A stretch of DNA of 64,000 bases from an uncultured Bacteroidales bacterium. Lineage in GTDB: Bacteria; Bacteroidota; Bacteroidia; Bacteroidales; UBA932. Location of the stretch: the NCBI GenBank assembly GCA_944323845.1, contig CALUUA010000009.1, positions 1-64,000 on the forward strand, given 5' to 3'. The first letter of the stretch is position 1, and each line of letters starts with the position of its first letter. Both the position numbers and the translations under genes were made by a program. Below are positions 10,632-43,194 of the stretch, piece after piece. Below the pieces are notes generated by a model, which was not told the origin of the DNA, did not search any database, and was given only the letters and a program-made list of their open reading frames with translations.

Positions 10632-11612
10632 ATGAATGTACTCATATACCACGATTCAGTCATTCCCGCCTTCAGATACGGGGGTACGCAGAGGGTGATA
10701 TGGTCCCTGGGCAAGGAACTTGTCCGGTTAGGGCACAAGGTCACTTTCCTGTGCAGGAAGGGGTCGGAATGCGATTTCGCCAGAGTGCTCCACATAGACC
10801 CTTCCCTGCGCATCGAGGAGCAGATTCCTGATGACATAGACGTGGTACATTTCAACGGGGAGGTATTTCCATGCAAGGGAAAGCCTTACATCGTGACCTA
10901 CCACGGGAATTTCATGTCCGGAAAGCTGGACAGGAACGCCGTTTTCGTGTCCGCGAATCATGCGGCCAGATATGAAAGCCGGTCTTTCGTCTACAACGGG
11001 CTGGACTGGAGCGAATATGGAAAAGTCTGTCTTTCGGAGAGGAAAACTTACTGGCATTTCCTCGGCAAGGCGGCATGGAGCGTAAAGAATGTCAGAGGCG
11101 CGATAGATGTCGTCAGAAGAATCCCGAAAGCCAGACTTTACGTGCTGGGAGGATACCGGTTCAATTTCAAGATGGGGCTGCGTTTCACTCTGACGCCCAA
11201 AGCCAGATTCTGCGGGATGATTGGCGGTGAGGAGAAACTGGAGATACTCAGGCATTCGGCCGGGCTGATTTTCCCTGTCATCTGGGACGAACCTTTCGGC
11301 CTCGCCATGACTGAAAGCCTGTATTTCGGAGCTCCGGTATTCGGGACACCTTACGGTTCTCTGCCGGAAATCGTCACTTCCGATGTCGGATTCCTGACGG
11401 ACAACGCGTCAGAGATGGCAGACCGTATCATCCACGGCCCGGAATTCAATCCCGCCGTCTGCCACGAATATGCGGCAGACAAGTTCAACTCCCAAGTCAT
11501 GGCACATGAATATCTGAAAAAATATGAAACTGTCCTTTCAGGACAATGCCTGAACGCCGTGGAGCCGCAGGCCGTCAGGCCTGACGCACGAAAACTGCCG
11601 TGGCATAAATAA
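10632..11612 (+). CDS. Glycosyltransferase family 4
   Basis: The 326-residue cytosolic enzyme has a GT-B fold. The N-terminal domain opens MNVLIYHDSVIPAFRYGGTQ with the glycine-rich acceptor loop; the C-terminal donor domain has AGLIFPVIWDEPFGLAMTESLYFGAPVFGTPYGSLPEIV (given here only as the pattern EPFGL...E, the usual nucleotide-sugar site, near residue 220). It transfers a sugar from an activated donor, but the donor and acceptor cannot be told. It stands apart from other polysaccharide synthesis genes and is followed by the hairpin repeat and terminator at 11621-11755. Confidence 0.88.
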   Translation: MNVLIYHDSVIPAFRYGGTQRVIWSLGKELVRLGHKVTFLCRKGSECDFARVLHIDPSLRIEEQIPDDIDVVHFNGEVFPCKGKPYIVTYHGNFMSGKLDRNAVFVSANHAARYESRSFVYNGLDWSEYGKVCLSERKTYWHFLGKAAWSVKNVRGAIDVVRRIPKARLYVLGGYRFNFKMGLRFTLTPKARFCGMIGGEEKLEILRHSAGLIFPVIWDEPFGLAMTESLYFGAPVFGTPYGSLPEIVTSDVGFLTDNASEMADRIIHGPEFNPAVCHEYAADKFNSQVMAHEYLKKYETVLSGQCLNAVEPQAVRPDARKLPWHK

Positions 11613-11620
11613 GACGTTTG

Positions 11621-11755
11621 AGTGGGTAGATCAAAAGTCTCGAAGTGACCGCGATCGCAGGAAGCGAGATCCCCCTAACGGGGGATATTGGTCAGCCTTT
11701 CGAAGAAAGGCAAGAGGGTGACCCAAAAGGAATTTTGTGTCACCCTTGCCTTTTT
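11621..11755 (-). repeat. Multi-hairpin intergenic repeat, copy A
   Basis: On the minus strand this stretch matches copy B at 41790-41927 (plus strand). Shared blocks in order are a hairpin around GGGTGAC...GTCACCC, the mini-hairpin GCCTTTC-TTC-GAAAGGC (11711-11695), a C5/G5 stem with a four-base loop, and a conserved block TCGCTTCCT-CG-TCGCGGTCACTTCG then GACTTTTGA. It fills the gap between the convergent GT4 gene and the PUL minus operon. Its function is unknown; it looks like a mobile or regulatory RNA-type repeat. Confidence 0.8.
11709..11755 (+). terminator. Intrinsic terminator after the GT4 gene
   Basis: GGCAAGAGGGTGACCCAAAA pairs with TTTTGTGTCACCCTTGCC around a GGAA loop (11709-11750), followed by five T residues. 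It stops plus-strand transcription from the GT4 gene. The same stem may also end minus-strand transcripts of the PUL. It is part of repeat copy A. Confidence 0.9.
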
Positions 11756-14878: not shown

Positions 14879-17800
14879 TCAGAATGTAAATGAAACACCG
14901 GCAGTCAGGCCGAAAGCCCTCGGATATGCAGACCAGTCAAACCCTGGAGTAAGCACCGAATTTCTGGTAGAAACTTCAGGATCCGGTCCGGAATAGTTTG
15001 TCCATGTCCAGATATTGTCTGCCGATATATACACGCGCATGGTATCGAAATGCATGGCTCTGAGCGCCCTTCTCGGAAGAGTATAGCCGAGGGACACGTT
15101 CCTGAGCTTGAGGAAGGAACCGTCTTCGATCACCCTTGAAGAATATACGAACATGCCTTCCGCCCCGATTCTCGGAATGTCGCTGTCAGGCCGCTCCACC
15201 GCATCGAACCTGCCGGCATATGAAGCCAGCTGGTTAAGGTTCGAGATAGAACCGTTCTCGAAAATAAGCCTGTTGGCATTCAGGATATCGTTGCCATAGC
15301 TCCATGAGAAGAAAATGTTCAAGTCGAATCCGTAGAAATAGAAGGAGTTACCGAAACCTCCGGTGTGTATCGGCTGTCCGCAGCCTATGATAGTACGGTC
15401 GTTGTCATCGACCACGCCGTCATGGTTAATATCCCTGTATTTCGGATCACCCGGCCTGATTTCCGATCTGGCCACGCTTGAGAGGGCCGGAACCTCATCG
15501 CGGAGAGTCTGGCCGATGAAATCATCAGCCTTGTATGTGCCGTCATAGATGTATCCGTACATCATTCCTGACGGTTTTCCGACCTGAGTGATATACGGGC
15601 TCTGGCTGTTGAACCTCTGATCCCATGATACGGAAGTAAGCAATGAAGACTGTCCCATATTCAGGGCGGTTACCTTGTTCCGGTTGAAAGCAATGTTGAA
15701 GGATGTGGTCCACTGGAAATTCTTCTTGTTTATGTTCAGTGTCTCCAGCGATATTTCCCATCCCGTATTCCTCATCGAACCGATGTTCATCATGGCATTC
15801 TCGAAACCGGATGAAGACGGGATGGTGGCATTCAGAAGAAGGTCATAAGTATTCTTCATGTACCAGTCCACAGTCAGCTTTATCCTGTCGTTCTCGAAGA
15901 AAGAGAGGTCGATACCGGCATTCCACTGCTCGGTGGTCTCCCATTTCAGCCCTTTATTTCCGAGATTGCCCGGATAGTATCCTGAAACTATCTCACCTCC
16001 GAAAACATAGTCACCGGTATCGGTGCTTCCCGGATTCACCACCAGCTGAGGATAGAAATCATAAGGGGTAGTGGTCCTGTTGTTACCTGTCAGACCCCAG
16101 GACAGACGGAGTTTACCGTTTTTCAACCAGCTGCTGTTTTTCAGAAGCTCTTCCCTGTTGAAGTTCCAGGCCAGGGAACCTGAAGGGAAATAGCCCCACT
16201 GATTGTCTTTCGGGAATCTGGAAGAGCCGTCGGCCCTGAACGAGGCTGTCAGGTAATATTTGTACTTGTAGTTGTACTGAAGCCTGAAAAGGCCGGACAT
16301 CATTCTCCAGTTATACTCCCATGGGGTCACGGTCTGATAATGACCGGTATGCATACCGTTGAGTCCCAGAGACTCGGTAGTCATGTTTGTCGAGCGGGTA
16401 CCCTTGTAGTCATTCGTCTGTCCCTGGAAAGTAAGACCGCCGAGGAGGGTCAGATGATGAACCCTGCGGATATGCTTGGTCCATGTGAGAGTGTTCTCAT
16501 TCAGCCATGTCACCCAATTAGTCCAGTATATGGCACCGTTTATGCCGTTTCCTGAAGGAGAGCCTTCATAACCGGTATAGGTCATCGAACCGTTGAACTC
16601 TTCCCTGCGGCGTTCCTGCAGGGTATAGGTACCTGTCACCTTGAGCACCAGATCCGGAATGATGGTATATGTGAGTCCCAGCTGCGCATTCATATAGTCC
16701 TGAATCGTCTTGCGGTATTCATTCCTTACCGAAAGCGCCGGATTGAAACGATAGTCGTTCGGACCGATAAGTTCAGGGTCATCCATCGGAGTGATCAGGA
16801 ACTCGTCGTCCGTAATGGATGTATCCCACAGAGGCTTGGTAGGACGATATCCCCATACGGAATAGATCAGCCAGCCTGAAGCCGAGGAAGACTGCTGTGC
16901 GGCAGTAGGATTTGTTCCGCTGGTTATCGATCTGGAATAGTTCACGTTCAGGTCCGCCTTTATCTTCTTTCCTATGTTCTGGGAAAAGTTGATTTTCCCC
17001 TGATATCTCTGGAAATTGGAATTTACGATGATACCGTCCTGATCGAGTACGGAAAAGCTGACTGCATACCTGTTTCCGGCTTCCTTGCTTCCACCCGAAA
17101 GCGAAATATTGTAATTCTGCACGAGAGCCGTCCTGTATATCATATCCTGCCAGTCGTAAGTCCGGGCATTCTTATAATCCTCGACGGTATTCATCTGGAC
17201 GCCATGGTCGTAAAGATAGATGTTCGTACCGCCCGTAGCAGCGTACATGTCTGTCTGGAAATCAACGAATTCATAGGCATCCATCAATTCGATCTTATTG
17301 TAAATCTTGTTCGCTGTCCATGAAGCGCTGAAATTGACCTTCGGCTTGCCTTCCACACCCTGCTTGGTGGTGATCACTATCACACCGTTCGCTCCTCGGG
17401 CGCCGTAAATCGCCGTTGCGGAAGCATCCTTCAGGATATCTATGGACTCGATGTCAGCCGAACTCAAGGAAGTGGCCAGAGAACTTTCTGACGGGAAACC
17501 GTCGATCACATAAAGAGGTGCGGAACTCTGGGTCAGAGAGTTGTTTCCCCTGATGGTGATGTTCGCCTCGGCGCCCAGGGATCCGTCCGAAGTGGATACC
17601 ACCACTCCGGCCACACGGCCTGTAAGGGCCTGATCGAAGTTCGGTATCGGGGCCTTCATCATTTCACCCATATCGACCTTGCTCACGGCGCCGGTAAGGT
17701 CTCTCCTGGTCACGGAACCGTAACCGACGCTCACCACTTCGGCTGCATCGAGAGAGAGCTGCTCTTCACCCATGGAAACATTGATCGTGCTGCGTTTGGC

Positions 17801-32079: not shown

Positions 32080-32121
32080 AAGGAAGGAGACTAAAAGCGC
32101 GCTTTTAGTCTCCTTCCTTTT
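32080..32121 (+). terminator. Terminator of the PUL plus operon (perfect 36-base palindrome)
   Basis: GGAAGGAGACTAAAAGCG at 32082-32099 is followed directly by its exact reverse complement to 32117, then TTTT. The stem extends by two A-T pairs outwards. No unpaired loop bases remain, so the hairpin must open a few central pairs. The T run also forms the start of the -33 element of the next promoter. Confidence 0.85.
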
Positions 32122-41756: not shown

Positions 41757-41789
41757 GAAGACGGAAATTTGTTTTCCGGAAAAAGAAAT

Positions 41790-41823
41790 GAGGGTGACCA
41801 AAAAGGAATTTTTGGCCACCCTC
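41790..41823 (+). terminator. rpmH terminator-like hairpin
   Basis: GAGGGTGACCAAAAA and TTTTTGGCCACCCTC pair around GGAA with one mismatch. No long T run follows outside the stem, but the stem itself ends the short rpmH unit and may serve both convergent genes. It is the first module of repeat copy B. Confidence 0.7.
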
Positions 41824-41927
41824 AAACGTCTTTCTTCGAAAGACTATACCCTTCCAAACCCCCTGCACCCCCTATAGGGGGATTTCGCTTCCTCCGGTCG
41901 CGGTCACTTCGTGACTTTTGACCCACT
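41790..41927 (+). repeat. Multi-hairpin intergenic repeat, copy B
   Basis: Modules in order: the GGGTGACC hairpin; mini-hairpin GTCTTTC-TTC-GAAAGAC (41828-41844); a spacer; CCCCCTATAGGGGG (41868-41881); and the block from TTTCGCTTCCT to GACTTTTGACCCACT with a further GTCAC-TTC-GTGAC stem. It matches copy A at 11621-11755 on the opposite strand. It lies between convergent rpmH and the DoxX-like gene. Confidence 0.8.
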
Positions 41928-41952: not shown

Positions 41953-43194
41953 TCACAGCAGCAGCATTACTGCAAAGCAGAAAAGGAAAAACGCCTGAAA
42001 AAAAAGATTCCCCACGGTTCCGTAGGACAACAATGGTTCCGTAGGATCTTCCTTTCCGAGTTCGGCCACGCGGTTTTCATTCGGCAACGCCCTGAAGGCC
42101 CACTTCCTGACCAAAAATCCGTCAGCGAAGAACGTGGCCCCTCCATTCGATCTGTTCAGCGAAACAAGGGTCTTGTAATCAGAATAATAGAATACTTCCC
42201 TGAGGAATCCGGTATCGGCGCCTTCTTCCTGTTCCAAAGACGAAAGTATCCCTTCTCCCTTTTCAGGGGACACGGCTGCCAGCAGAAGCGGACGGAAACC
42301 GCTGTCTGCAGAAGACCGGAGAAATCCGGCCAGAGCCCTCCATTTCCGCGGAGAAAGACCGTCCACATCATACACGCTCACTACCATGACCTTAGGGCTG
42401 ACAGCCAGATAATCATAAGATTCTCCGGAAGCATCCATGACAGGCAGAGTCACTATGGATTCGTCCCAACCTCCTGTCTCCTTTCTGACCGTCTCTGTCG
42501 AAACATAAGTCCATGTGGAATCGGGCAGGTCGTCCAACGAAAATTCTCTGGTCTTGCCGTCCTTTTCATAGATGAACACGGCTTCGTATTCATCTCCGGC
42601 AAAATGGGCATTGTCCATATGTCTCTCGGATGCCGCCAGACGTGCAGAGGCCGAATATCCGGTAAAATCCACCACCGGTATATACAGAAGTGAGTAGACT
42701 CCGAACAGAACAAGGGCGGCCGTGACGAAAGAAAAGGCTACATATTTCCGTTTCTTCGGACGGCCGAGAGCCGAAAACGGGAAGAATGAGGCACAGCACA
42801 GAGCCAGAAGCACCAGATTCTTGACGAAAGTCTGCATGTGGGTCAAATGGATGGCTTCGCCGAAACAGCCGCAGTCCATGGCCGGATTGAAGACCAGCAG
42901 GGCGACCGATATCAGCATGAAGACGCACATGGCAGAAAGGGTGATGATTGCCGTTATCTTCCGCCATAATCCTGTGATGAGCGCCGCACCCAAAACGGAT
43001 TCGGTGAGGGACACTGCCACGGCCGCCGGCATGGAAATGAAGGAAAGGAAATCCAGATGCATGAATTTCAGATATTCCTCCACTATCAGTTTCGTTCCCA
43101 CCGGATCCATCAGCTTGAAGACACCGGACACGAAAAACACGATGCCGACCAGATAACCGCAGAACCGCTTGCTGCGCTCCAATATTATATTCAT
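41953..43194 (-). CDS. DoxX/MauE-like membrane protein with redoxin-like C-terminal domain
   Basis: The first 150 residues form four membrane helices of the DoxX/MauE type: GYLVGIVFFVSGVFKLMDPVG, VAVSLTESVLGAALITGLW, TLSAMCVFMLISVALLVF, then MDCGCFGE with a Cys-x-Cys pair, a hallmark of MauE-type redox proteins. A further helix precedes a soluble part of about 200 residues that looks like a thioredoxin-type fold (LAVSPKVMVVSVYDVDGLS, GGATFFADGFLVRKW) but has no CxxC. The final helix is hydrophobic. The function is unknown; a role in envelope redox balance is inferred. It follows tmk by 12 bases in the same operon. Confidence 0.75.
   Translation of the reverse strand: MNIILERSKRFCGYLVGIVFFVSGVFKLMDPVGTKLIVEEYLKFMHLDFLSFISMPAAVAVSLTESVLGAALITGLWRKITAIITLSAMCVFMLISVALLVFNPAMDCGCFGEAIHLTHMQTFVKNLVLLALCCASFFPFSALGRPKKRKYVAFSFVTAALVLFGVYSLLYIPVVDFTGYSASARLAASERHMDNAHFAGDEYEAVFIYEKDGKTREFSLDDLPDSTWTYVSTETVRKETGGWDESIVTLPVMDASGESYDYLAVSPKVMVVSVYDVDGLSPRKWRALAGFLRSSADSGFRPLLLAAVSPEKGEGILSSLEQEEGADTGFLREVFYYSDYKTLVSLNRSNGGATFFADGFLVRKWAFRALPNENRVAELGKEDPTEPLLSYGTVGNLFFQAFFLFCFAVMLLL

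Follow-up and report, generated by a model that had tools for sequence, protein, structure and literature searches.

A dispersed MITE-like modular repeat with a terminator-like hairpin at the 3' ends of genes in uncultured Bacteroidales

BOX elements of Streptococcus pneumoniae (boxA-boxB-boxC) are dispersed intergenic repeats with fixed ends and optional stem-loop modules, a patchy distribution and a bias towards convergent genes, and SPRITE, a dispersed terminator-like repeat consisting of a single 18-bp duplex and a U-rich tail, shows strong enrichment in the gaps of convergent gene pairs (PMC3049150). Prokaryotic MITEs such as QMITE, Chunjie and Correia are non-coding intergenic sequences of less than 500 bp that occur in internal-deletion size series and as truncated copies; a review lists terminal inverted repeats (TIRs) and flanking direct repeats among their structural features and raises MITE-made terminators as a possibility (PMC10969869). 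We describe here a repeat family with two copies in a 64,000-nt stretch of a Bacteroidales contig (the window), for which BOX, by its modularity, and SPRITE, by its terminator look, appear to be the nearest known kinds in behaviour. Compared by description and not by sequence, it resembles BOX in its fixed end modules, optional middle modules, patchiness and convergent-gene bias, but its first module lies at terminator positions, T-tracts stand outside both of its ends and, whereas the TIRs of BOX have been compared with ISSpn2, we found no significant TIR and no IS. With SPRITE it shares the look of an intrinsic terminator and the bias towards convergent genes; here, however, the hairpin with this look forms a single module within a composite of 140-340 nt, and the T-tract is external to the element. 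Its 340-nt full form, the lack of a coding match, the intergenic location and the internal-deletion series recall MITEs, from which it differs in that target duplication, a significant TIR and a related IS were not found. Class IIC introns preferentially insert 3' of the hairpins of intrinsic terminators; the likeness to them concerns target choice only, and no intron structure or reverse transcriptase was seen here. The idea of MITE-made terminators is not new, but as far as we could find the family, its modular composite form and its occupation of the terminator slot at orthologous sites are undescribed, the literature on Bacteroidales intergenic terminator repeats having yielded no description.

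We propose, with a probability of roughly 0.6, that the family is a MITE-like repeat, modular, dispersed and non-coding, which settles where a gene would have its intrinsic terminator, at the 3' end, and that its outer hairpin (H1) serves as the terminator or takes over from it. Sequence comparisons demonstrate the family with its 340-nt form and deletion series, and show that H1 covaries, that A- and T-tracts flank the copies, that these lie behind stop codons and that most of the element-free orthologous sites examined hold ordinary terminators. H1 would stop RNA polymerase chiefly for the gene opposing the element, on whose side H1 is followed by a T-tract, and in some copies for both genes; this role would keep H1 paired, and the repeat would spread as a mobile element through an enzyme acting in trans. 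Mobility is suggested by near-identical copies at unrelated sites, by the retention of both ends through internal deletions and by the patchy distribution, and we write MITE-like instead of MITE because no target duplication, significant TIR or transposase was found.

The initial annotation had described two sequences of the window, copy A on the minus strand and copy B on the plus strand, as a multi-hairpin repeat with the same order of modules, and their sequences confirm it. Both run from H1 (GAGGGTGACC..GGYCACCCTC) through H2 (GYCTTTC-TTC-GAAAGRC), the C5/G5 stem H3, a conserved block (TCGCTYCYTCC..GTCGCG) and H4 (GTCAC-TTC-GTGAC) to TTTTGACCCACC. They are 86% identical across 59 nt of the right half, a pattern scan for the conserved block returned 2 matches against 0.00 expected in shuffles, and folding against dinucleotide shuffles gave z values of -5.5 for A and -4.7 for B. 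Copy A (11622-11755, minus strand) corresponds, by BLAST pieces against the 340-nt full element, to a short, internally deleted form with end modules LH at 11695-11755 and RH at 11622-11686, the latter 85-91% identical to copies elsewhere. Its H1, with the core GAGGGTGACCC-AAAAGGAATTTT-GTGTCACCCT at 11714-11746, is lengthened by the locus-specific arms AAAGGCAAG/CTTGCCTTT into a stem spanning 11706-11753 and, read on the plus strand, leads into T5 (11751-11755); from its sequence, its fold and the covariation of the family, it looks like a putative intrinsic terminator of the upstream plus-strand gene ending at 11612. The mini-stem H2 (GCCTTTC-TTC-GAAAGGC; 11695-11711, minus strand) overlaps the extended H1 stem, so that the two are mutually exclusive. 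Within 11695-11753 the AAAGGC segment has two alternative partners, one in H2 and one in the extended terminator stem of H1, an attenuator-like arrangement noticed in this copy only. Further along the minus strand come H3, a C5/G5 stem at 11671-11684 that is a deletion junction of the longer element, and H4 (GTCACTTCGAGAC, 11637-11649), in which an A.A mismatch breaks one pair. Directly after the right end, at 11613-11622 on the same strand, 10 nt of a second TCAAACGTC-type left module survive as a remnant, and this head-to-tail junction recurs at five other loci. Copy B (41790-41926, plus strand), likewise a short form, sits between an rpmH-like gene (stop at 41757) and a minus-strand gene at 41953-43194. 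On the plus strand it comprises H1 (GAGGGTGACCAAAAAGGAATTTTTGGCCACCCTC, 41790-41823), which is followed in the minus-strand reading by the T-rich tract ATTTCTTTTTCC, H2 (GTCTTTC-TTC-GAAAGAC, 41828-41844), H3 (CCCCCTATAGGGGG, 41868-41881) and H4 (GTCACTTCGTGAC, 41903-41915), then TTTTGACCCAC.

The longest copies of the family (G063:C14, G063:C21 and G062:C23) measure 340 nt and divide into LH (1-51), M0 (52-121), M1 (122-204), which contains GAATGTCC..GGACATTC, M2 (204-283) and RH (284-340). The form present in the window (~140 nt) equals positions 1-51, 122-146 and 284-340 of this full element. The LH and RH ends are kept through deletions and M0, M1 and M2 are optional; at one site shared by two genomes (L063/L071), with flanks 97-99% identical, M1 is present in one and absent from the other. 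H3 is the junction left by the loss of M2 (CCCCTATTA...TTAGGGGG becoming CCCCTATTAGGGGG), and H2 gained its outer pairs through the loss of M0. The G061 ortholog of copy B (L049) has diverged H1 and H2 (TTTTC/GAAAA) and is without the right half. Judged from these matches, copies A and B are internal-deletion derivatives of a 340-nt element of stem-loop modules, and multi-hairpin 'RNAs' found by eye can turn out to be deletion junctions of a modular element.

The initial annotation had left it to a genome-wide count whether A and B stand alone, and they prove to belong to a dispersed intergenic family. By pattern count, the genome of the window (G000; 2.23 Mb, 31 contigs) has about 13 left halves and about 10 right halves, against 0 for reversed patterns there and 0-2 across the genomes counted; four genomes scanned with identical patterns hold 13-43 left and 10-28 right halves, and such MAG counts are lower bounds since many copies lie at contig ends. 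The family is carried by 42 of 400 sampled genomes of the genus, most of which have none, and by 18 of the 150 good genomes in this sample, a patchiness that accounts for the absence of copies in a narrower search of 36 genomes of the genus. A contig scan with the right-end block matched several uncultured Bacteroidales MAGs, along with a single Planctomycetaceae record taken as chance. Three 142-nt copies at unrelated sites are 100% identical to each other. Phage and plasmid records and viral contigs gave no family match at the sensitivity used. Three hand-picked translated stretches of the element had no match in Pfam, and a protein-coding reading was set aside on that result. As to a named RNA family, which the initial annotation had suggested looking for, the only Rfam match in the window at gathering score was a 5' SSU rRNA fragment, the repeat itself being unmatched, and nothing credible appeared for it at gathering or permissive thresholds. 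The contig edge carries the 5' end of a minus-strand 16S rRNA gene, at positions 1-67 of the window.

Covariation is strongest in the outer GAGGGTGAC hairpin, H1, a stem that the initial annotation had listed among the modules. With related copies treated as independent and shuffle fractions not to be read as probabilities, here and for the left modules below, 7 of 33 pairs are changed on both sides among 22 short-form copies (shuffled mean 1.9, 0/500 as high; slid controls 1-4), six of them in H1, one in H2 and none in H3 or H4. Across 48 left modules (H1 and H2), 8 of 21 pairs and 31 cells are double-changed (shuffled mean 10.8 cells, 0/500; slid controls 0-5 cells), and seven of these eight pairs fall among the 14 of H1. 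The compensatory change between C-G in A and T-A in B, which the initial annotation had singled out in the mini-stem, is exact, but it is a single event confined to copy A among the 22 short copies. The broader view of that annotation holds in part: pairing is kept while bases change, but its addition that the repeat is not just a shared terminator is not quite right, since convincing covariation is limited to H1, the hairpin at the terminator position, and is absent from H3 and H4. Since H2 and H3 were completed by internal deletions and H3 and H4 lack compensatory changes, these comparisons show the maintenance of one terminator-like hairpin and do not extend to selection on an entire RNA of several hairpins. 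Perfect palindromes can also persist via template-switch mutation without selection, and the H1 counts would fit such correction as well as selection. The arms of H1 run in register into locus-specific flanks, as in copy A and at L054 (GACGATAG/CTATCGTC) and L059 (TAATAG/CTATTA), and L050 bears a palindrome wholly unlike the H1 of the family. G.T and A.C mismatches in H1 are equally frequent (16 vs 16), so that G.U wobble favours neither strand as the RNA.

The position of the copies relative to genes is consistent with a role in termination. With genes called by a simple purpose-made ORF caller, crude and distinct from curated annotation, 41 of 49 copies with a left module have their H1-side neighbour directed toward the element (p = 2e-6), and the element lies at a median of about 30 nt, typically 20-60 nt, downstream of the stop codon. 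Convergent pairs enclose 32 of 63 copies against 4 of 32 control gaps (p = 3e-4), bearing out a location between convergent genes that the initial annotation had proposed to check, and divergent pairs enclose 6 of 63 against 11 of 32 (p = 0.005), the control set being small in both comparisons. Where gene order is tandem, 16 of 22 copies face the same way (p = 0.05), and several copies adjoin tRNA 3' ends. The A-content of the 10 nt before H1 is 44% against 26% further out, and the T-content of the 10 nt after the right end is 53% against 31%. A T-tract (5 of 8) follows the right end in 20/27 copies (control 11/81; p = 1e-8) and, on the opposite strand, follows H1 in 13/27 full copies (control 12/81; p = 0.001), this latter tract being outside the repeat. 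In the forward direction of the element, H1 is followed by AAACGTC and not by T, and the hairpin next to the right end is weak; termination in that direction would need the right end together with its T-tract and is less clear.

At selected orthologous sites, where hairpins were judged by eye, terminator-like hairpins whose sequence differs between species stand at element-free positions (L187-L196, L205, L243, L244, L247, L249, L253 and L254). Terminators of the AAAGCCCCTG..CAGGGGCTTTT type occupy the L113 site in G061, G062 and G066 and different ones in G000 and G065; the L163 site has a different hairpin in each of six genomes; the L182 site has GATGCAGGAGATGAACGTCTCCTGCATCTTTTTTTT in G062 (L205); and the L003 site has a canonical terminator in G063 and G065. 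The site of copy B contains canonical terminators in G065 and G063 and H1-like hairpins in G061 and G144, and no obvious terminator was seen there by eye in G208, G140 and G071. At a tRNA-Leu (CAG) site (L010), G061, G065 and G144 have hairpins framed by similar A- and T-tracts, and G000 has an H1-type hairpin. A terminator at the empty site is not a universal rule, because the L141 site showed by eye no clear hairpin in G000, G063 and G065; the element-free orthologous sites L199-L201 are without an obvious terminator. For copy A, the flanking genes were unmatched in other species. H1 also occurs alone with a T-tract, at G140:C38 (GAGAGAGGGTGGCC..GGGTCACCCTCTCTCTTTTT), G140:C49 and G071:C1 (L231, L232 and L229). 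Between L163 and L192, in two genomes, the flanks are ~98% (left) and ~95% (right) identical and the hairpins after the same stop codon are entirely different, suggesting rapid replacement of terminators within the genus. If the proposed reading is true, a repeat family would be supplying and exchanging terminators for many genes within one genus, and its occupied and empty orthologous sites in many genomes would allow a direct comparison of point change with replacement in the evolution of terminators, and would let one ask if the repeat persists because it terminates transcription. A bolder version, in which a mobile element targets intrinsic terminators, inserts at the hairpin, brings a replacement whose arms adapt to the flanks and so makes the terminators of sister species turn over quickly and wholesale, we advance only tentatively and consider rather unlikely.

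Several tests bear on mobility. The longest direct match near the ends, taken as a measure of target-site duplication, was no better than with swapped flanks (209/300 as high), in a set with no certainly young copy. The ends are only weakly inverted: as terminal inverted repeats, which in MITEs measure 4-30 bp, GAGGGTG-ACCAAAAG and GTGGGTGGGTCAAAAG reached a score attained by 6% of shuffles. In the genomes searched via recognisable ends, no left and right ends enclosed a gene as an autonomous parent would require, and no transposase linked to the element was found. Nesting of the whole element within a native terminator stem was unsupported as a rule, the 5' and 3' flanks being no more complementary than swapped pairs (63/500 as high), though single loci resemble it. 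A purely selfish MITE-like repeat, surviving only downstream of genes through the purging of insertions elsewhere and inserting into the T-rich tails of terminators, with H1 kept paired for transposition or by template switching and not for termination, would agree with the internal-deletion series with conserved ends, the patchy distribution in the genus, the identical copies at several loci and the absence of an RNA-strand sign in the H1 mismatches; the same 3'-end bias in pneumococcal BOX, RUP and IS elements has been interpreted as tolerance (PMC3049150). We nevertheless hold it to be unlikely, as many occupied sites show no separate native terminator beside the element although relatives have one there, and as other loci carry H1 by itself together with a T-tract.

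It is still less probable, and in our opinion distinctly doubtful, that H1 belongs to the host as its terminator and that the mobile unit is only TCAAACGTC...CCCACCCAC, placed immediately on the 3' side of the hairpin much as class IIC introns choose terminators. The L003 site in G061 (L050), where a GCGTGGA..TCCACGC terminator like that of G063 (L247) is directly followed by the unit minus H1, would fit this arrangement, as would L123 and L115, which differ by a unit without H1, and the six loci at which a right end runs straight into a TCAAACGTC-type left module. However, the H1 consensus is common to tens of loci in several species, which argues that H1 usually travels with the unit, and the L115/L123 difference is equally explained by deletion between ~22 bp direct repeats.

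A structured non-coding RNA or 3'-UTR regulator built from all hairpins is hardly credible: the stable folds of A and B speak for it, as does an Rfam match of copy A to PrrB/RsmZ that, at 24.9 bits, stays below the gathering score of 44, but modules are freely lost between copies, compensatory changes number one in H2 and none in H3 and H4, and at a permissive threshold the PrrB/RsmZ match is not obtained with the full-length element. Equally implausible is a REP/BIME-type sequence mobilised by a RAYT (Y1 transposase), for although the repeat is hairpin-rich, extragenic and near gene ends and G000 encodes one PF01797 (Y1) protein, the gene for this protein is flanked by an unrelated 56-nt tandem repeat and not by the element, whose 340-nt modular size is unlike that of REPs. 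The transposase-like PF01797 gene (302 aa; L036 2400-4560, G000:C20, ~15400-17560) has tandem ~56-nt repeat copies (GCGCCTAGTCCG...GGACCTGTATCATTTT) on both sides, a RAYT-like arrangement unrelated to the family described here.

Other repeats were met beside the MITE-like family. A second, larger family with ends TTAACGTCAGTTCGACGAA.../...TTCATCGAACTCACGTTAA that resemble terminal inverted repeats occurs at L107-L111, L117-L119, L122 and L244, and some of its copies enclose a TACGTC subfamily of the present element. A terminator-like hairpin with a GATTTC-type loop, GTGACTGAAAAGG...CCTTTTCAGTCAC or GAGGGTGAAAAAGGG...CCCTTTTTTCACTCTC, recurs at L195, L196, L248 and L057 and is possibly a further dispersed terminator family. 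The block GGGTGATCTGCGGCGTTGCCGGCTGGACTCGGACTTCGGTC is found twice within one intergenic region on the minus strand of L250 (G208:C104). Finally, a perfect 20-bp inverted repeat without spacer (AAGGAAGGAGACTAAAAGCG/CGCTTTTAGTCTCCTTCCTT), probably a terminator, lies at 32080-32119 of the window between two plus-strand genes.
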